A DNA stretch of 64,000 nucleotides from Gemmata palustris (GTDB taxonomy: Bacteria > Planctomycetota > Planctomycetia > Gemmatales > Gemmataceae), in contig NZ_JAGKQQ010000001.1 of assembly GCF_017939745.1 (NCBI RefSeq), forward strand, positions 4,402,001 to 4,466,000, given 5' to 3'. Position 1 is the stretch's first letter, and each line of letters opens with the position of its first letter. The notes under the pieces are model-generated. The model was not told where the DNA came from. It did no database searches and saw nothing but the letters and a program-made list of their open reading frames with translations. The position numbers were made by a program, and so were the translations under genes. Shown here in pieces: positions 9,073 through 54,923 of this stretch.

Positions 9073-9900
9073 ATGTCGCCGCACGCGCGAATTCTGATGT
9101 GCCCGCCGGACCACTACGGGATCGAGTACGAAATCAACCCGTGGATGAACCGGTCCCTCGGCGCCGTGCGCGCGCTCGCGTTCCGACAGTGGCAGCAACT
9201 CCACGACACACTCGTGTCGCTCGGTGTTCGGGTCGAGACGATGACCCCGCAGCCGGGGCTACCGGACCTCGTGTTCACCGCCAACGCCGGGCTGGTGTTC
9301 CACAACACGTTCCTGAGTAGTCGGTTCCGGCACGAGGTGCGGGCCAAAGAGTCGCCGCACTTTGATGCGTGGTTCGCGGAACACGGTTTTACCGTAACGC
9401 ACTTGCCGGAGAACTCGTTCCACGAAGGCGCGGGCGACGCGCTGTTCTGCGGCGACACGCTGTTCGCGGGGTACCGCACGCGGTCGGACGCGAGCGCGCA
9501 CCAGTGGGTCGGCAAAACGTTCGAGGTGCGCGTGTTGCCGCTCGAACTGGTGAACCCGCGGTTCTACCACCTCGATACGTGTTTCTGCCCGATCGCGCCG
9601 GGCGAAGCCATCTACTTCCCGGATGCGTTCGACACTTACGGTAAGCGCGTGCTACACACACACGTGCCCAAACTCATTCCGGTCGCAGAAGAAGAGGCGT
9701 TTCGGTTCGGGTGCAACGCGGTGGTGGTCGGCAAAACGGTGGTTCACAATAGCCGGTGCCCGCGCCTGGCCGAAGACCTGACCCGCGCCGGGTACAGAGC
9801 AATTGAAGTGGAGCTGGACGAGTTCCTGAAGGCCGGCGGTAGCGCGAAGTGCCTCACCCTGCGGCTCGATGGCGAAGAAGCCGCCGGGTGGAAGTGGTAG
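9073..9900 (+). CDS. arginine dihydrolase/dimethylargininase-family protein (stand-alone ArgZ-type domain)
   Basis: 275 residues. It matches the guanidine-modifying N-terminal domain of ArgZ/AgrE along its whole length, which converts arginine to ornithine, CO2 and two ammonia. Residues expected for that activity are present: Asn22 (YEINPWM), Asn71 in FTANAG, Glu118/Asp122 in HEGAGDALF, His166 in FYHLDTCF and the nucleophile Cys260 in GGSAKCLTLRL. The Asn at position 71, rather than a simple arginine-deiminase pattern, favours a dihydrolase over a citrulline-forming deiminase. The partner ornithine cyclodeaminase is 2 kb upstream at 5860-7098. GGAAG precedes the start. Confidence 0.85.
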   Translation: MSPHARILMCPPDHYGIEYEINPWMNRSLGAVRALAFRQWQQLHDTLVSLGVRVETMTPQPGLPDLVFTANAGLVFHNTFLSSRFRHEVRAKESPHFDAWFAEHGFTVTHLPENSFHEGAGDALFCGDTLFAGYRTRSDASAHQWVGKTFEVRVLPLELVNPRFYHLDTCFCPIAPGEAIYFPDAFDTYGKRVLHTHVPKLIPVAEEEAFRFGCNAVVVGKTVVHNSRCPRLAEDLTRAGYRAIEVELDEFLKAGGSAKCLTLRLDGEEAAGWKW

Positions 9901-9902
9901 CT

Positions 9903-9984
9903 CCAGAGTTCCCAGTTCCAGAGTTCCAAGTTGAAGGCGAACCGTTCGGATCGATCTTTTCAACTGGGAACTCTGGAACTCTGG
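9903..9984. repeat. inverted word repeat, AGTTCC family (copy 1)
   Basis: The left side is a run of 7-8-base words (CCAGAGTT, CCCAGTT, CCAGAGTT, CCAAGTT, then GAA). After about 28 unrelated bases the right side carries the complementary run (TTCAACTGGGAACTCTGGAA...). It lies between the convergent ends of the arginine dihydrolase gene and the minus-strand Zn-ribbon membrane gene and could fold into a long hairpin that separates the transcripts. A second copy of this family is at 41040-41171. Confidence 0.7.
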
Positions 9985-9986
9985 GG

Positions 9987-10991
9987 TCAGTAGTGCAACA
10001 GAATCTTCGGCGCCGGCTTGTTGCCGCGTTTGTCGAGCACGATGCGCGTGACGGTAGCCCCAACCGCAAGTGCGTTGCACAGGAGCGCGAGATACAACCA
10101 CGACGTCCGCTCGACGTTGTAAGCGTTATACGCTTGCTCTTCCTTGTACTTCAGCGCATCCAACTTGGCCGGGCTGGTCTCTTTCTCACGGGCCGCAGCA
10201 AACTGTTCCGAAATTTGTTTCTGGATAGCGCGTTCCATACCAAAGCCGTTCGCAACTTGCCACAGCGCGAAGAGGAGCGCGAACGTAGCGCACGCCAAAA
10301 CAATCGCGTTGCGCCAGGGCCACAGTTTTGCGAGCGGGGGCACCTTTCGTGGGTCAAATGAGCTCAGCCCACGCTCGGCCCAGGCAAAAGACAACCCGGT
10401 CAAAAGAAACAAGAAGAACGGTAAGAGCAGTGGCCAGTCACCGTGCATCTTGTCGATCCAACTGCCAGGAATTGCTCCCGCTTCTTCGAGCTGGTAGTTC
10501 CGGCTCGGCGACCCACCAAACATCGCCCCCCACGGCCGCTGTGAATAAACCGCGGAGCCCCCCAGGTAACTCCCCACCCACGGGAAGAACGTGAGCACGA
10601 ACACTACTGTCAGCAGGGCGGCCGGGAGCCACGCGACCACCTTCGGCGAAATGGTGATCCCGCGTGCGTGCGTATATCCCGCGAGCGCGGGCGCAGCGGC
10701 GGACGACGGGAGGAACCCGTCGGGCGTCGGCGGCGCCGGCGGAACGAATCCCGGGGGCGGGGCCGAAGCCGATGCCGACGCGGGGATGGGCGGAGGCGCC
10801 GGCGGGGTCGATCCCGGAGGGGCCGAAGCCGCCGCACTCGCGATTGCTGCGGCCGCTTCGGGTACGACCGCGGCGGAGTACCGCGCGGGCGTGGGGAACG
10901 AACGACCGCAGTTCGGGCACGTCGCCTCTTTGCCGGCCGTATCGTCGGCCACGGTCACGCCGCTCATGCAGTGCGGGCAAATCAACCGCAT
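9987..10991 (-). CDS. zinc-ribbon membrane protein
   Basis: 334 residues. The N-terminus is an MJ0042-like zinc ribbon (LICPHCMSGVTV...ATCPNCGRSF, CxxC at residues 5/8 and 25/28). A long Ala/Pro-rich linker (about 45-100) follows, then hydrophobic segments at about 120-142, 187-205, 227-245 and 295-315. This domain order (zinc ribbon, low-complexity linker, membrane domain) is very common among uncharacterised planctomycete proteins. It lies 8 bases upstream of nnrD on the same strand. No function is assigned. Confidence 0.8.
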   Translation of the reverse strand: MRLICPHCMSGVTVADDTAGKEATCPNCGRSFPTPARYSAAVVPEAAAAIASAAASAPPGSTPPAPPPIPASASASAPPPGFVPPAPPTPDGFLPSSAAAPALAGYTHARGITISPKVVAWLPAALLTVVFVLTFFPWVGSYLGGSAVYSQRPWGAMFGGSPSRNYQLEEAGAIPGSWIDKMHGDWPLLLPFFLFLLTGLSFAWAERGLSSFDPRKVPPLAKLWPWRNAIVLACATFALLFALWQVANGFGMERAIQKQISEQFAAAREKETSPAKLDALKYKEEQAYNAYNVERTSWLYLALLCNALAVGATVTRIVLDKRGNKPAPKILLHY

Positions 10992-23416: not shown

Positions 23417-23614
23417 TCCCGCTCCCGGATTCGCGCTGGCTCGTCTTCGGCGTGTCGTGATTCGGTGAACTGGCGGCGGTCGCCGTCTGGGATCACCGCC
23501 CGAGTGCGGACGAACTGCTCGCCCGGCGGGTCGAACGGGGCTGGAAGCCGACGTGCTCGCTGCTCAAAGCGGGGCCGACGATTCTGGGCCACGCGGCCCT
23601 TCTCAGTCAAAAGC

Positions 23615-23694
23615 CGTAAGGTCGCAAGTCGTAAGATCCAAAGACCGAAACGGCAGATGCTTTGGACCTTACGACTTGCGACCTTACGACCTTA
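23615..23694. repeat. inverted word repeat, CGTAAGGT family (copy 1)
   Basis: 29-base arms at 23615-23643 and 23660-23688, built from 7-8-base words (CGTAAGGT, CGCAAGT, CGTAAG; right side CTTA-CGACTTG-CGACCTTA), with an extra CGACCTTA unit after the right arm. It overlaps the stop of the IS-disrupted gene and ends 19 bases before the hmgA start. A one-sided member of the family is at 34543-34570. Confidence 0.75.
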
Positions 23695-23712
23695 CGACGA
23701 GGGCAGACAGAC

Positions 23713-33810: not shown

Positions 33811-34551
33811 ATGCCGAAGGCACGCATCGTAGTGGTGGAAGACGAGCCGGCCATTCGCCGGGGCGTGTCCGACGCTCTCCGCTTGAGCGGGTACGAAGTC
33901 ACCGAAGCAATCGACGGCGCCATCGGGCTGCGCGAGGCCGCCTCCGCCGGCGTCGACCTGGTGCTGCTCGACATCATGCTCCCCAAGCGCGACGGGCTGG
34001 AGGTGCTGAGCGAACTGCGCCGCACCAACCCGACGCGCCCGGTCATCCTGCTCACCGCGCGGGGCAGCGAGGACGACCGCGTGCGCGGGCTCAAAATGGG
34101 CGCCGACGATTACGTCGTCAAACCGTTCTCCGCGAAGGAACTGATCGCCCGCGTCGAAGCGATCCTCCGGCGCACCATGCGGGCGGTGCCCGACGTGCGG
34201 CTCGTTGAGATGGGCGGGGGGATGATCGACCTCCTGCGCCGCGAGATCCGGTGGAGCGACAGCACCCGCGCCGACCTCTCCGAAACCGAGGCCGCGCTGC
34301 TCAAGTACCTGGTGTGCAACCGCGAGCGCGCGGTGTCCCGCGAGGAACTGCTCTCCCGCGTGTGGGGGATCGGGACCGCGGGCCTGGAAACGCGGGCGGT
34401 CGACATGCACATCGCCCGGCTGCGGGCCAAGCTCAAAGACCCGCACGGGGGCGAGGACCAGCCCGACGCCATCGTCACGGTGCGGGCACACGGGTACATG
34501 GCCGGTCCCGCCCTGGCGGTGCCGGAAGAGGCCACGAGCCTCAAGTCGTAA
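33811..34551 (+). CDS. OmpR/PhoB-family response regulator
   Basis: 246 residues. Receiver domain: acidic pocket VVVEDEP, phospho-acceptor Asp54 (LVLLDIMLP), Thr in LLTARG and Lys in VVKPFSA. DNA-binding winged helix from about 140: ADLSETEAALLKYLVCNRERAVSREELLSRVWG, AVDMHIARLRAKL and IVTVRAHGYM. The last four codons and the stop lie within a CGTAAGGT-type word repeat. The cognate histidine kinase follows after 69 bases. Confidence 0.95.
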   Translation: MPKARIVVVEDEPAIRRGVSDALRLSGYEVTEAIDGAIGLREAASAGVDLVLLDIMLPKRDGLEVLSELRRTNPTRPVILLTARGSEDDRVRGLKMGADDYVVKPFSAKELIARVEAILRRTMRAVPDVRLVEMGGGMIDLLRREIRWSDSTRADLSETEAALLKYLVCNRERAVSREELLSRVWGIGTAGLETRAVDMHIARLRAKLKDPHGGEDQPDAIVTVRAHGYMAGPALAVPEEATSLKS

Positions 34552-34570
34552 GGTCATCAAGTCGCAAGGT
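34543..34570. repeat. word repeat, CGTAAGGT family (one-sided copy)
   Basis: Two copies of AAGTCGYAAGGT (34543-34554 and 34559-34570) separated by CATC. They overlap the 3' end and stop codon of the response regulator gene and are the same word family as 23615-23694. Confidence 0.65.
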
Positions 34571-34620
34571 CGAAACCCTCGGGTCGTTCCCGGACCGCGC
34601 GACGTTCAGCGGAGTGCGCG

Positions 34621-41012: not shown

Positions 41013-41039
41013 CAGGCAAAACGGAAACCGACTAACTCC

Positions 41040-41171
41040 AAGTTCCACGTTCCAATTCGCACGGAGCGCCCGGCCCCAAGGGGCAAACCAAAAAGGCGCG
41101 CGTTGGATCAGTTCTGGAACTCGAACGGGAAGCCGCCGAACAAAAACTTGGAACTCTGGAACTTGGAACTC
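41040..41171. repeat. inverted word repeat, AGTTCC family (copy 2)
   Basis: The left run is CCAAGTT-CCACGTT-CCAATT (41040-41059). The right run is GGAACTT-GGAACTCT style words at about 41144-41171, ending 6 bases before the ABC ATPase start codon. The intervening about 85 bases show no gene. Words and 7/8-base spacing match the copy at 9903-9984. Confidence 0.65.
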
Positions 41172-41176
41172 ACGCC

Positions 41177-49469: not shown

Positions 49470-52067
49470 ATGAACGCGCTGTTCGCAATCGCCCCGCAGT
49501 TCGCCGACGCGCCGCTCCTGGGCCTGTTCTGGGGCCTGTTCACCGGCGAACCCCAGGTCCGGGGCGGCATCCGCCCCGAGGTCGCGATCCCGTTGGGGCT
49601 CGTCGCGGTCGCCGCGGTCGTCGTGCTCTACGCCAAAGAAGCCGGGCGGCTGACCGCGGCCCAGCGGCTGCTCCTCACGGGCGTGCGCGCGGCCATCGTG
49701 ACCGTCGTCGCGTTCCTCCTCACGCGGCCCGTGTGGGTCAGCGAGCGGGCCGGCGAGCGCCCCCGGCCCGTCGCCGTGCTCATCGACGTGTCGCAGAGCA
49801 TGGACCAAAAGGACCCGCGCCCGAACCCCGACGACCAGTGGCGCGCGGCGCTCGCGTTCGGCCTCATCGAGCCCGGCAAGCCCTTCCCGGCGCACTCGCC
49901 CGCGGACCGGGGGTCGGTGCCCGAGCGCCCCACGCGCCTGGAGGTCGCCCGCGCCGCGCTCACCAACCCGCGGCTCGACCTGCTCAACAAGCTCAAGAAG
50001 ACCGGGCCGCTCGAGGTCTCCACGTTCGGCTCGGGCCGCACCGGGCGGGACTCCGGCGACACCGCGTGGATCAAGAGCCTCACCGCGGACCAGCCGCGGA
50101 CCAAGCTCGTGAACGCGGCCCTCGAGCTGCTCAACCGCGACGAAAACGAACAGCCCGCGGCCGTCGTCGTCGTCACCGACGGGCGCGAGAACGCCAGCGA
50201 CAAGAGCCTCACCGAACTCGCGGAGCGGTACCGCGCGCGCCGGATCCCGCTCCACATCTACGGCGTCGGGAGTTCCTCGTTCGGCCAGCTCCGGCTGCGC
50301 GACGCGGGCGTGCCGGAATCGGTGTTCATCGACGACACCGTGGCCGTGCCGGTGCGCTACGCCGTCAAGGGCGTCGCCGGGGGCACGGTCGACATCGTGG
50401 TGAAGTTCGGCGACCGCGAGGTCGCCGCCAAGCGCGGCATCCCGGCGCGCGGGGGCGACGACCTGCGCGAGGTGCTGACTTTCGTGCCGAGCAAAGAGGA
50501 AGCGGGGTCCAAGAAGCAGGAAATCACCGTCACCGTAACGGTCACGCCCGGCGGACCGGCCGGCGTTGTCGCGGACGCGCTCACCGATTCGACCACCAAG
50601 CCCACGCAGGTCGTCACCAAGAAGCTCAAGGTGCTGGTGGTGGACGGGCTGCCGCGCAAGGACTTCCAGTTCCTCCAGCGGGCGCTCCTGCGCGACCGGC
50701 GCGTGGACGCGCGGTTCTTTCTCACCGAGGGCGACCGCGAGGCGATGAAGTCCGGGTACCCGTGGCTCCTCGAGTTCACGCGCCAGCTCAACGGCACGCT
50801 CAGCCTGGAGCGGGAAGAGTTCCGCAAGCTCGTCAACGAGTACGACCTGCTCATCCTGGGCGACGTACCGGGCAAGTTCTTCTCGCGCGAGCACCAGCAG
50901 GTCATCAAAGAGTTCGTGGCCGAGGGCGGCGGGATGGTTCACATCGCGGGGAAGTGGAACGGCCCGAGCGGGTGGCTCACCGCGGACGGCGGGCAAGCGT
51001 CCGTCGCCGACGTTTTGCCGGTCGAGTTGAAGCCGGTCAAGTTCGCGATCCAGCCGCCCCAGGGCCGGTACTACCAACCGTTCGTCCCGGCCCTCGCGCC
51101 GACCGCGACCCGGAACCCGCTCGTGGCCCTCGAGGACGACCCGCTCGACAACGCGGACCTGTGGGGGCGCACCGCCCCGACCGGCCCGAACGACACCCCG
51201 TCCGCGCCCGAGCCGAGCCGCGAGACGAAGAAGAAGCAGCTCCAACCGATCGAGTGGTACTACCCCGTCACCCGCCTCAAACCGGGCGCGGAAACGTTCC
51301 TCGTTCACCCGACCGCGCGCACCCCCGAGCCGGACAACCGGCCGATGCCGCTGCTCGCGGGCCACTACTACGGCAAGGGCTACGTCCTGTTCTGCGCGTT
51401 CGACGACACCTGGAAGTGGCGGTTCAACGAGGCCGACCGGTACTTCGGCCGGTTCTGGAGCCAGTGCGTGTACCTGGCCGGCGTCCCCCGGGCCATCGGG
51501 ACCAAGCTGACGCAGGTCTCGCTCGACACGCTCGAACCGGTCCAGGGCAAGAGCGGGCAGATTTACGCCCGCGTCCTCGACGAGAACTTCAAGCCCTACG
51601 CGGCCGACGAGATCGACGCGACGCTGGAGCAACTCGACGCGGACCCGAACGCCCGGGACCGCACCGCGCCGGTGAAGCTGCGGAAGCTCCACGGGCAGGA
51701 CGGCGAGTTCGTGGCGCCGCTCCCGTTCAACCGGTTCGGGCGCTTCAAGCTCACCGTGACGCCGAACAACAAGTCCCCGGCGCACCTGGAGTACCGCGTC
51801 AACCTGCCGCCCGATCACGAGCAAGCGCCCGGCGGGCTCGCGGAACTCGAAATGATGAAGCTCGCCGCCGACAGCGGCGCGGCCGAGCGCCCGGGCCAGT
51901 TCTACCACGAGGAAGACCTGTCCCGACTGCCGGACGACGTGAAACCGCAGTACACGAAGTTCACCCGGCGCGACGAAACCGTCTTGTGGAACAAGTGGTG
52001 GATGGCCCTGCTGATCGGCCTGCTGTCGCTCGAGTGGTTTTTGCGCAAGTTCTGCGGCCTGAGTTGA
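49470..52067 (+). CDS. second VWA membrane protein (BatB/glutamine-amidotransferase-like)
   Basis: 865 residues. Membrane helices are at about 37-55 (VAIPLGLVAVAAVVVLY) and 72-90, then a VWA domain with MIDAS DVSQSM (Asp106, Ser108, Ser110) and VVVVTDGREN. The middle part holds a GATase1-like region (LKVLVVDGLPRKDFQFLQRALL, LLILGDVPGKFFSREHQQVIKEFVAEGGGMVHIAG). A C-terminal helix (WMALLIGLLSLEWFLRKF) closes the protein. It is encoded 56 bases after the BatA-type gene and shares its plan, so the two are probably paralogs forming one complex with MoxR/DUF58. Confidence 0.9.
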   Translation: MNALFAIAPQFADAPLLGLFWGLFTGEPQVRGGIRPEVAIPLGLVAVAAVVVLYAKEAGRLTAAQRLLLTGVRAAIVTVVAFLLTRPVWVSERAGERPRPVAVLIDVSQSMDQKDPRPNPDDQWRAALAFGLIEPGKPFPAHSPADRGSVPERPTRLEVARAALTNPRLDLLNKLKKTGPLEVSTFGSGRTGRDSGDTAWIKSLTADQPRTKLVNAALELLNRDENEQPAAVVVVTDGRENASDKSLTELAERYRARRIPLHIYGVGSSSFGQLRLRDAGVPESVFIDDTVAVPVRYAVKGVAGGTVDIVVKFGDREVAAKRGIPARGGDDLREVLTFVPSKEEAGSKKQEITVTVTVTPGGPAGVVADALTDSTTKPTQVVTKKLKVLVVDGLPRKDFQFLQRALLRDRRVDARFFLTEGDREAMKSGYPWLLEFTRQLNGTLSLEREEFRKLVNEYDLLILGDVPGKFFSREHQQVIKEFVAEGGGMVHIAGKWNGPSGWLTADGGQASVADVLPVELKPVKFAIQPPQGRYYQPFVPALAPTATRNPLVALEDDPLDNADLWGRTAPTGPNDTPSAPEPSRETKKKQLQPIEWYYPVTRLKPGAETFLVHPTARTPEPDNRPMPLLAGHYYGKGYVLFCAFDDTWKWRFNEADRYFGRFWSQCVYLAGVPRAIGTKLTQVSLDTLEPVQGKSGQIYARVLDENFKPYAADEIDATLEQLDADPNARDRTAPVKLRKLHGQDGEFVAPLPFNRFGRFKLTVTPNNKSPAHLEYRVNLPPDHEQAPGGLAELEMMKLAADSGAAERPGQFYHEEDLSRLPDDVKPQYTKFTRRDETVLWNKWWMALLIGLLSLEWFLRKFCGLS

Positions 52068-52070
52068 GGC

Positions 52071-52140
52071 CAGGGGACAGAGGACAGAGGACAGAAGCCA
52101 GAAGCCAGAGGACAAGACCAGACCAGAGATCAGAAGACGA
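52071..52140. repeat. heptamer repeat, CAGAGGA family (left arm)
   Basis: Tandem heptamers CAGAGGA, CAGAGGA, CAGAAGC, CAGAAGC, CAGAGGA (52078-52112), then degenerate AGACC/AGATC words to about 52140. They start 4 bases after the stop of the VWA gene. They are the complement of the TCCTCTG run at 52600-52662, so the two runs form long inverted flanks around the four-helix-bundle gene. Confidence 0.85.
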
Positions 52141-52212
52141 GGAAGACAGAAAACAGCAAAAAACAGTAGCCAGTGAAGCGGGTAAAAAGTCAAAACGTCG
52201 GGGACTATCGCC

Positions 52213-52596
52213 GTGCGTATTAACTCCGCAAAAGACCTCACCGTTTATCAAAAAGCGTTTGAGCTTGGTAAATTGGCGTTCGAGCTGACGCTGCGTTTTC
52301 CGAGAGAGGAGATCTACGCCCTCACGAGCCAGTTGCGCCGGTCTTCACGTTCGATCTGCTTGAACTTGCGGGAAGCATGGGCCAAACGTCGGTACCGCGC
52401 TCACTTTGTCAGCAAACTTACAGACTGTGACGGAGAGAGTAACGAGACGGACACCGCGCTCGATTTTGCCCTGGTTCACGGTTACATCACCGAAGAAGAT
52501 CACCGCCGGGCCGCGGGCTTGTGCTGTGAGGTGGGCAAAATGCTGGGTGCAATGATTCAGAACCCGGAACCATTCCTTCTCGCGGACACAATGTGA
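52213..52596 (+). CDS. four-helix-bundle protein (S23/23S rRNA intervening-sequence family, TIGR02436)
   Basis: 127 residues from GTG 52213. It matches the family well: KDLTVYQKAFELGKLAFELTLRFPREEIYALTSQLRRSSRSICLNLREAW, followed by FVSKLTDCDGESNETDTALDFALVHGYITEEDH. These small basic four-helix bundles were first seen encoded in 23S rRNA intervening sequences and are related to Avd of diversity-generating retroelements; most are orphan genes of unknown role. GC content is well below that of the neighbours. It is inserted between two genes of the Bat-like locus and framed by inverted heptamer repeats. Confidence 0.9.
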   Translation: MRINSAKDLTVYQKAFELGKLAFELTLRFPREEIYALTSQLRRSSRSICLNLREAWAKRRYRAHFVSKLTDCDGESNETDTALDFALVHGYITEEDHRRAAGLCCEVGKMLGAMIQNPEPFLLADTM

Positions 52597-52599
52597 GGC

Positions 52600-52662
52600 T
52601 CCTCTGTCCTCTGTCCTCTGTCCTCTGTCCTCTGTCCTCTGTCCTCTGTCCTCTGACCTCTG
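52600..52662. repeat. heptamer repeat, TCCTCTG x8 (right arm)
   Basis: Eight perfect tandem TCCTCTG units (52600-52655) and one variant (ACCTCTG, 52656-52662). The run begins 4 bases after the four-helix-bundle stop and ends 5 bases before the next start codon. The exactness contrasts with the degenerate left arm and suggests recent slippage or active maintenance. Confidence 0.95.
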
Positions 52663-52667
52663 GCCCC

Positions 52668-54923
52668 ATGACCCATTTACTCGGACAACTCAAGCGCTGG
52701 CGGTTCACGGAACAACTGGTCCGGCTCGCGTGGGGCGGCGCGCGGTGGGGGGCCGTCGTCGGCGCCGTGCTCGCGGCCGCGTGCCTCACGGATTGGGCCG
52801 CCGACCGGTACCTCGGCTCCGAAACGTGGCGCCAGTTCCTCAAGGACACCTGGGTCTTCGCCCCCGCCCCGGCGCCCGCGGCCGAGGACCGCTGGTTCAC
52901 CGAGCACCTGCGGCTCCACTACGGGTTCCGGGCACCGGCCGCGGCCGTCATCGACGACTCCCCCAAGTGGCTCCGCGTCGCCATGACCGGCGGGCAAGCG
53001 GCCCTCGCGCTCGTTCTCGCGTACTACCTGCTCGTCCGCCCGTGGCGCCGAACGCCCTCGGTGGACGAACTCGCGGGCGCGGCCGAAGAAGCCATTCCCG
53101 AGTTCGGGCACCGGCTCGTAACCGCGCTCCAACTGAACCGCCCGACGGCCCGGACGCAGGGCATGTCCCAATCACTGATCGCGGACGTCACGCGCGAAGC
53201 GGGCGAGCTCTCCGCACGGCACAACCTCCTCAAATTGGTCGACTACCGGCGCCTCGCGCTCGCGGCGCTGGTCGCGGGGCCGGTGCTCGGCGGCTGGGCC
53301 GCTTACGCGCTCGCGAAGCCCGCGCTGGCCGCCGTCCTGCTCAAGCGCCAGTTGCTCCTGAGCGTGGAGATCCCGCGCACGATTCACCTGCAAAACGTGT
53401 CGCAAGACGTGTGGCCGACCGGGGCGGAAGTCGAAATCCGGTACAAGGTGACCGGCGACTACCCGCGCCCGTGGTTCACCGAGCGGCTCCGCGCGGAGCA
53501 CGGGTTCGCGCTCGCGCCGCCCGCGGACGGGTTCTCCGGGCGGCTGCGGGTCGAACCGGACGGCCAGCCGGAAGAGAGTTACGACCTCGTGTACGACAAG
53601 GAGGTCGAGGGCGAACCCGGAGCCGCGTACTTCGTCGCCAAGCTCCCCGCATCATCACTCGACTTCAGCTTCACCGCGCGCCTCGACAACGGCCGGACCC
53701 GCGCCCCGGGCCGCGTCCGGTTCGAGCCGCCGCCGCAATTGAGCGCGGACAGCGACGCGCTCACCGCCGAGCAGTGGCTCCCGAAGTTCCTGGGCACCCA
53801 GCCCAACGGCGCGCCGTATGTCCGCAAGAGCGACGGCGGGGTGCGCGGCGAGGTGACCGACGCCCTGCCTCAGTCCCAGATCCTCGTCGAAGCGAAGTTC
53901 AACAAGCCGGTGCAGAAGGCGCGCCTGATCCCCATCGTGCGCGACGGGGTGCGCGAAAAGGACTACCCGGACGGCCCCGCGGACTTCCACGCGCCGCGCG
54001 ACACCGGCGCCGACCGCAAATCCGCCGTGTGGCTGTTCCCCACCACCGAGAAGACCATCGGGTACCGGATCGAGCTGACCGACGACCGCGGGTTCGTGAA
54101 CTCGGTCCCGATCCGGCGCAACGTGCGCATGCTGGACGACCGCCCCCCGGTCGTCACGTTTTTGCCCGAATCCGACCGCCACCCGGACCCGACCGACTTC
54201 GGCGGCCAGGGCGACCCGAAAGTGTACGAGTGGGGCGACCGCATCCCGCTCGCCCAGGGGGGGCGCGTGATGGTGATCTACAACACCCGGTCCGAGCAGG
54301 GCATCGGCCGGGCGAACATCGCGTACCGCGTGATCCCGCGGGGCGTCGCGCCGGACGCTTACCCCAAAGAGGTCCAGGACATTCAGCACCCGCGGCAGGA
54401 CCCGGAGAACAAGGTGTTCAACCGCCTGCCGCTCAAACCGATCACCGCGGACCTGACCAAAGTGGGCAAGTTCGTGCCCGATCTGGGGCTGTTCGAGAAG
54501 TCCTGGGCGGGGCTGAGCGAGCCCGACCGCGACCGGGTGAACATCGAGTTCTACCTCTGGCCCTCGCCCGCGCCGGACGCGGTCCCGGGCGGGCTCGAAG
54601 CCGGCGGGCGCTACAACTTCGAGATCGACGGGCTGACCAAAAAAATCCCCGATAGCACCGGAAGTTTCGTTAACGCGAAACTCGAGGTCGGCGACACGGT
54701 TGAATTATTCGTGGAGGTGTTCGATAAGAACCCGACGCCCGGCCGCGCGCCCGGTTACACCAAGGAGGCGCGCCGGAAGATCGTGGTCACCCCCGAGGAC
54801 GCCCGGATCGCGACCCAAATGCGAAACGTGGAGTACGATCGCCTTCAGAACAAGCTCCGCGAGCTCGCCGCCGACCAGGGGAACGTCTTCAAGGAGCCGA
54901 AGAAGGAGCTGCCCAAGCAGTAA
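52668..54923 (+). CDS. large membrane protein, DUF4175-like
   Basis: 751 residues from ATG 52668; the frame is open through the heptamer repeat, but that part encodes only a repetitive LCPLSSV peptide. Membrane helices are at about 22-44 (WGAVVGAVLAAACLTDWAA), 106-123 (GQAALALVLAYYLLVRP) and 202-222 (LALAALVAGPVLGGWAAYAL). A long extracytoplasmic beta-rich region then ends in a coiled-coil tail (MRNVEYDRLQNKLRELAADQ). The N-terminal plan recalls the DUF4175/low-complexity proteins whose C-terminal half is coiled-coil; here that half may be the separate gene at 55108. No ribosome-binding site is present, as the repeat occupies that position. Confidence 0.75.
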   Translation: MTHLLGQLKRWRFTEQLVRLAWGGARWGAVVGAVLAAACLTDWAADRYLGSETWRQFLKDTWVFAPAPAPAAEDRWFTEHLRLHYGFRAPAAAVIDDSPKWLRVAMTGGQAALALVLAYYLLVRPWRRTPSVDELAGAAEEAIPEFGHRLVTALQLNRPTARTQGMSQSLIADVTREAGELSARHNLLKLVDYRRLALAALVAGPVLGGWAAYALAKPALAAVLLKRQLLLSVEIPRTIHLQNVSQDVWPTGAEVEIRYKVTGDYPRPWFTERLRAEHGFALAPPADGFSGRLRVEPDGQPEESYDLVYDKEVEGEPGAAYFVAKLPASSLDFSFTARLDNGRTRAPGRVRFEPPPQLSADSDALTAEQWLPKFLGTQPNGAPYVRKSDGGVRGEVTDALPQSQILVEAKFNKPVQKARLIPIVRDGVREKDYPDGPADFHAPRDTGADRKSAVWLFPTTEKTIGYRIELTDDRGFVNSVPIRRNVRMLDDRPPVVTFLPESDRHPDPTDFGGQGDPKVYEWGDRIPLAQGGRVMVIYNTRSEQGIGRANIAYRVIPRGVAPDAYPKEVQDIQHPRQDPENKVFNRLPLKPITADLTKVGKFVPDLGLFEKSWAGLSEPDRDRVNIEFYLWPSPAPDAVPGGLEAGGRYNFEIDGLTKKIPDSTGSFVNAKLEVGDTVELFVEVFDKNPTPGRAPGYTKEARRKIVVTPEDARIATQMRNVEYDRLQNKLRELAADQGNVFKEPKKELPKQ

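Follow-up and report, generated by a model that had tools for sequence, protein, structure and literature searches.

The 23S rRNA intervening sequences (IVS) of Leptospira, Coxiella and other bacteria share two properties with the cassette described here, namely a PF05635 gene and inverted-repeat borders; they form a stem that is cut by RNase III, and are about 430 nt in length. In the Coxiella IVS, the heptamer array (GACAGAT)3 lies ahead of the S23 ORF and 28-bp inverted repeats bound the element; RNase III cuts at the first repeat, and the S23 protein is reported as probably not being produced in vivo (PMC4990558). The same paper recalls old proposals that intervening sequences are mobile.

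Tandem heptamer families have been reported in other genomes, including GGGAATC in Xanthomonas, GGGGATT in Nostoc and heptanucleotides in Calothrix (PMC4692102), TAACTGA in Beggiatoaceae (PMC4679880), and GGGACCG in Geobacter (PMC2700814), with 70 convergent inverted heptamer pairs in X. campestris (PMC4692102). Similar to the arrays analysed here, these are tandem 7-nt words located between genes and near stop codons. They have previously been explained by slippage, G-quadruplexes or regulation (PMC4692102, PMC4679880), and the Beggiatoaceae study speculated on a mobile repeat-binding protein (PMC4679880); in the sections of these papers that bear on the repeats, no protein is assigned to them (PMC4692102, PMC4679880, PMC2700814). 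Within the open-licence literature, the only link we found between heptamers and S23 (here IVP) genes is the Coxiella paper, which describes heptamers in one rRNA IVS, and an earlier report elsewhere remains possible. What is new here is that heptamer families are linked to IVP genes and to mobility. Two further systems invite comparison: REP/REPIN sequences with their RAYT transposases, and MITEs, are likewise small inverted units scattered between genes, and both come in forms with and without a gene.

The window analysed here is a stretch of 64,000 nucleotides from the planctomycete Gemmata palustris, and the cassette lies between two protein-coding genes within it. Its features are as follows (window positions, strand).
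49470..52067, plus strand: upstream host gene encoding a VWA-domain protein, with a TGA stop that reaches into the outer end of the left inverted arm
52066..52662, plus strand: whole cassette, consisting of left word array, linker, IVP/S23 gene and right word array
52066..52114, plus strand: left inverted arm, 7 degenerate CAGAGGA copies (GGACAGAGGACAGAGGACAGAAGCCAGAAG...)
52213..52596, plus strand: IVP/S23 four-helix-bundle gene (PF05635, TIGR02436), 127 aa, GTG start
52600..52662, minus strand: right array, 8 perfect TCCTCTG copies (CAGAGGA on the minus strand) plus one ACCTCTG
52668..54923, plus strand: downstream host gene encoding a membrane protein

The arrays fit closely between the host genes, with which the IVP gene is co-oriented. 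On the left, the degenerate CAGAGGA run starts within a few bases of the VWA-gene TGA (52065-52067) and continues past the arm to approximately 52170; Tandem Repeats Finder reports 7.0 copies at 52066-52114 (83%). On the right, the perfect TCCTCTG copies occupy 52600-52655 and the ACCTCTG copy ends at 52662, for 9.0 copies over 52600-52662 (98%), and only 5 nt then separate the array from the ATG of the downstream gene at 52668. The latter gene, initially labelled DUF4175-like, had no Pfam or NCBIfam match. As inverted arms, 52066-52114 and 52612-52660 match best, with 42 of 49 bp identical, and the inverted repeat therefore starts inside the VWA-gene stop codon. When folded as RNA, the cassette was more stable than 20 shuffled sequences (z=-5.4), with the arms pairing as an outer stem. 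No Rfam match was found in 51900-52800, and a known RNA family was therefore rejected for the cassette. It has one feature of an IVS, an S23 ORF within inverted repeats that can form a stem, and it is not inside a 23S rRNA gene. Between the arrays the IVP gene is the only ORF, such that there is no transposase, which an autonomous IS would carry, and no Y1 transposase, which a REP/REPIN-RAYT system would combine with a conserved short palindrome.

The 127-aa protein scored 95.2 bits against PF05635 (cut-off 33.8) and 86.2 bits against TIGR02436 (cut-off 24), and as both scores exceed the curated cut-offs it is a member of the S23/IVP family. Solved relatives are 2gsc and 2rld, and the former, an IVP homologue from Xanthomonas, is a homopentameric ring (structure cited in PMC4990558). 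The window protein is not basic (pI 6.8). Across the family, dN/dS values of 0.03-0.14 demonstrate strong purifying selection. Avd, the protein of diversity-generating retroelements (DGR), is a distant homologue and also a ring-forming four-helix bundle. Unlike in the Avd system, however, the window protein scored below the cut-offs of both the bAvd profile (39.6 bits; cut-off 40) and the DGR Avd profile (32.8 bits; cut-off 80), and the element contains no reverse transcriptase; DGR/Avd membership was rejected on these scores. Six PF00078 reverse transcriptase matches are present in the window's own genome, none of them inside the cassette. Among 60 IVP-positive genomes of the taxonomic family, 13 had no PF00078 match, including two (G031 and G053) with 5 IVP copies each, and a reverse transcriptase is therefore not required for carriage. 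On the same basis we rejected an obligate reverse transcriptase acting in trans.

We then asked how regularly IVP genes are bracketed by inverted arrays, by scoring the 200-nt upstream flank for local similarity to the reverse-complemented downstream flank. Within the same taxonomic family, 86 IVP genes had a mean inverted flank score of 23.5, versus 9.2 for 224 random size-matched windows, and 85% of these genes exceeded the 99th percentile of the control; no bracket was found for the remaining ~15%, and direct-orientation similarity was not enriched in these flanks. A scan of public sequences yielded 80 loci from Firmicutes, Bacteroidota, Acidobacteria, Proteobacteria, CPR bacteria, Chloroflexi, Cyanobacteria and an archaeon, and 77% of the 77 testable ones passed the inverted-flank test. 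In Xanthomonadaceae, where GGGAATC-type words like those of the Xanthomonas family bracket IVP genes, 93% of 29 loci passed; as judged from sequence, these lie mostly at carA/carB and accB/accC junctions. Overall, inverted tandem words flank 77-93% of IVP genes on both sides, compared with ~1% of random windows. ParE toxin genes, also small accessory genes of the same genomes, were bracketed in 0 of 30 cases (p=7e-18). Bracketing by words is thus a rule for the IVP gene family across phyla, and chance or slippage alone was rejected as the source of the arrays by the ParE and random-window controls.

A second gene family shows the same arrangement. GxxExxY genes (PF13366), which encode a small protein family unrelated to IVP, had inverted arrays at 29 of 30 loci (L246-L275, of which L263 is the copy in the window's own genome; words include CGCAGAGAA, ACGCAGATG and CACAAAGGC). 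The period of the words differs sharply between the families: IVP flanks had a period of 7-8 in 105 flanks and 9-10 in 2, whereas GxxExxY flanks had a period of 9-10 in 21 and 7-8 in 3 (p=5e-19 for the contrast). The period thus depends on the cargo gene, and we consider GxxExxY genes to be a sister class of this arrangement.

IVP insertions follow the direction of the host gene in 70 of 82 cases, and the 5′ arm is the G-rich one (63 versus 9), which amounts to a fixed strand polarity. Both biases fit either selection at the level of the transcript or an RNA step; antisense insertions also exist (L325, L327). At six Xanthomonadaceae loci (L353, L355, L356, L357, L360 and L363) the frame around the IVP gene is open for 380-510 aa, such that the heptamer array may be translated through from carA into the IVP gene. 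On plasmids of Anabaena sp. 90 and Pseudanabaena, type I-D CRISPR loci also have IVP cassettes, in both cases at the cas6/cas4 junction; these cassettes (L307, L321) differ in word, being of the GGTGACAGGGAACA and AAAAGCT types.

Although the words vary freely between loci, they follow the IVP protein clade. Where two IVP genes lie at unrelated junctions and their proteins are at least 55% identical, the cosine similarity of the words was 0.099, seven times the permuted value of 0.014 +/- 0.005 (2000 permutations, maximum 0.034). For example, an IVP protein 83% identical to that of the window, found in another genome and at another junction (L130), is also accompanied by CAGAGGA, as is L104. 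Array counts also tracked gene presence: (TCCTCTG)3 was most abundant in the two genomes with a CAGAGGA-type gene, followed by a third, incomplete genome, and (GGTGTTT)3 was most abundant in G088 and G092, both of which carry GTGTTTG-type genes. In Xanthomonadaceae (n=247), (GGGAATC)3 was present in 58 of the 108 genomes with the gene and in 16 of the 139 without it (OR 8.9), an association that was still significant in three of four genome-size classes. The correspondence is not absolute, as IVP-positive genomes can be without a given word and one genome (G012) had 29 (GGTGTTT)3 matches despite having no IVP gene. These results should also be interpreted in light of the fact that neither the word-clade nor the array-count tests were corrected for phylogeny, and related genomes are not independent.

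Within the window's own genome, the 21-mer (TCCTCTG)3 had 45+60 matches (<=1 mismatch) and its reversed control had 0, and the arrays are therefore not a product of chance. Approximately 14 further TCCTCTG/CAGAGGA loci were identified, all without the IVP gene; gene-less arrays of the same word are dispersed through the genomes, and we rejected the idea that the arrays are private to the window locus. Most of these loci are CAGAGGA...TCCTCTG inverted pairs 80-350 bp apart, always with CAGAGGA first, and they enclose either little sequence or a nested palindrome of ~300 bp, never the window IVP gene. This palindrome (TTTTGTAGCCCCGGATGGGGCGACCGATCGTAGCCAGGGGT...), the function of which is unknown, lies within CAGAGGA/TCCTCTG brackets at many genome sites (L062, L063, L064, L066, L070, L072 and L074). 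At L064, GxxExxY-like 9-nt words (CCGCAGATAACGCGGATCACGCC, CCACAAAAAGGCACAAAA; 2340-2440 and 2660-2800) lie outside the IVP-like CAGAGGA words, a composite structure that suggests nested insertions. Around the genome's second IVP gene, the bracketing words are different (AAGTCGTAAAGTCGAA...). Four further short-word arrays are present in the window, at 9900-9988, 23610-23700, 34540-34575 and 41038-41172 (words CCAGAGTT, GTAAGGTCG/GACCTTACG, TCAAGTCG and GAACTTGG); these are mostly intergenic inverted pairs that enclose no gene, and their words resemble those at IVP genes of the same genus.

Comparison of orthologous sites revealed that the element inserts as a unit. The VWA-gene junction was recovered in 18 genomes of the genus, and in the nearest relative (G010) it consists of 66 bp of ordinary intergenic sequence without a cassette. 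The window cassette replaces this native sequence, with no target duplication. Different inverted elements occupy the junction in other relatives; among them are gene-less GTGTTTG arrays that begin right at the stop codon. In nearly all species of the genus the element ahead of the DUF4175-like gene, whether inverted or palindromic, is a different one (L138-L160), and we regard this intergenic site as a hot spot. Filled and empty sites on cyanobacterial plasmids, compared by global alignment, provided the cleanest case: around the site, Trichormus L306 and Microchaete L310 share 98% identity apart from 428 bp, which correspond to the cassette and a clean 5-bp duplication, GTAAT. At the same site, Nostoc L311 has an array with an IVP gene that is truncated, whereas the inverted arrays of Brasilonema L313 enclose no gene. 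A second target duplication, TTCTA, is probable in the comparison of Nostoc L323 with L333. These are the only two duplications, one clean and one probable; ~7-40 nt of native sequence were lost at other sites, and at J2-J5 and J7 no clean duplication was found, with native bases lost or the alignment ambiguous. Insertions can also reach into coding sequence, as in L324, where the 3′ end of a host ORF contains the element and takes its stop codon from the element's left end, and in L309, where the final codons of an integrase gene are affected. Genome G032 has two copies (L118 and L121) that share 88.5% identity across 470 bp and are unrelated beyond the arrays. Insertion from array to array, with both filled and empty orthologous sites, is thus shown for close relatives of the window element; for the window itself, the empty site is that of G010.

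A preliminary description of the locus, made from the sequence alone, had proposed a mobile cassette with an S23/TIGR02436 gene between inverted CAGAGGA/TCCTCTG arrays and no transposase or reverse transcriptase. The arrangement was confirmed by the sequence, Tandem Repeats Finder and the profile scores, and the proposal of a mobile cassette is supported. None of the three outcomes that it named as refuting was observed. Heptamers flank IVP genes far above the rate of size-matched controls and of ParE genes; the insertion is traceable as a unit, by exact filled and empty sites and by paralogous copies that are alike only from array to array; and the gene was not found at the same locus without heptamers, as relatives are empty or have other inverted elements. 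The kinship to Avd that it suggested held only as distant homology, and it missed both the gene-less arrays across the genome and the span of the pattern over many phyla.

The most likely explanation of our results is that the window feature is one copy of a widespread, transposase-less mobile element of ~0.4-0.6 kb that has word arrays as its ends and consists of an S23/IVP four-helix-bundle gene inside inverted tandem arrays of a 7-8-nt word. Unlike rRNA IVS, such elements lie between protein genes, occur in many copies and across phyla, have clade-varying word arrays on both sides, and have gene-less derivatives. Unlike REP/REPIN-RAYT systems and MITEs, they have no Y1 or DDE enzyme, their word-array ends vary freely, and their period is tied to the cargo family. 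The reading as a mobile element must be made cautiously, as it is not supported by data from binding or mobility assays.

One may postulate alternative scenarios. In a passenger model, an ordinary host IS transposase moves the element as a MITE-like non-autonomous unit; the words derive from degenerate transposon ends that slippage has expanded, and the IVP gene is merely carried along and has a different function. The absence of a catalytic gene and the existence of gene-less derivatives are consistent with this model, as is the size of the GTAAT duplication; target duplications of 5 bp are normal for several IS and Tn families. True MITEs retain the fixed ends of their parent transposon, however, whereas here the end word changes freely between loci while following the IVP clade. 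The period moreover depends on the enclosed small gene, and strong purifying selection acts on the IVP gene; we consider the passenger model unlikely. Less plausible still is a retroelement model, in which IVP would be the Avd-like partner of a reverse transcriptase acting in trans and movement would proceed through an RNA copy. The distant Avd homology favours it, and the host-direction bias and the polarity of the 5′ arm point to an RNA step or to selection at the RNA level; the IVP-positive genomes without PF00078, G031 and G053 among them, and the antisense insertions L325 and L327 speak against it.

Similarly improbable is a host-feature model, according to which the arrays are intergenic simple repeats or mRNA-processing hairpins that arise by slippage and selection, a source already disfavoured above, and the association with IVP genes is secondary. 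In its favour, gene-less arrays are common, relatives carry different hairpins at the window junction, and earlier papers invoked slippage, G-quadruplexes or regulation (PMC4692102, PMC4679880). It is difficult to reconcile with the lack of arrays at ParE genes, the linkage of word to protein clade, the array counts that follow IVP presence, the exact insertion with target duplication, and the unit-wise duplication in G032.

Returning to the mobile-element reading, we infer a mechanism in which the IVP protein, a ring-shaped pentamer in the solved homologue, would read the 7-nt word, pair or protect both ends of the element, and also act in trans on gene-less arrays. For recognition of the arrays by the bundle protein, another claim of the preliminary description, the support is only indirect and no binding data exist: the words go with the protein clade, arrays are more numerous where the gene is present, and the period depends on the cargo. 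DNA breaking and joining would be performed by an enzyme encoded outside the element, which has not been shown. By analogy with rRNA IVS, the inverted arms would form a long stem around the gene in mRNA that RNase III could probably cleave; cutting of this stem from operon mRNA would make insertion within operons tolerable. The intervening sequences of 23S rRNA would then be special cases, copies that landed in rRNA.

A bolder reading, which we judge slightly more likely to fail than to hold, is that these elements represent a class of transposase-free mobile elements found across Bacteria and run by small non-catalytic proteins. In it, IVP would read words of 7-8 nt and GxxExxY words of 9-10 nt, the word would drift together with its protein, and word arrays with or without a gene would be the mobile substrates of that protein. 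If true, this would give the heptamer arrays of cyanobacteria, GGGAATC of Xanthomonas, TAACTGA of Beggiatoaceae and the rRNA IVS a common origin. Our findings tie a protein family whose function is unknown, and which has been seen chiefly in rRNA IVS, to heptamer families that were reported separately and left unexplained. They predict a protein that reads words with a specificity that can change, and DNA movement by an unknown route for which the element encodes no transposase, and they make both the role of the S23 protein and the origin of bacterial heptamer arrays directly testable.
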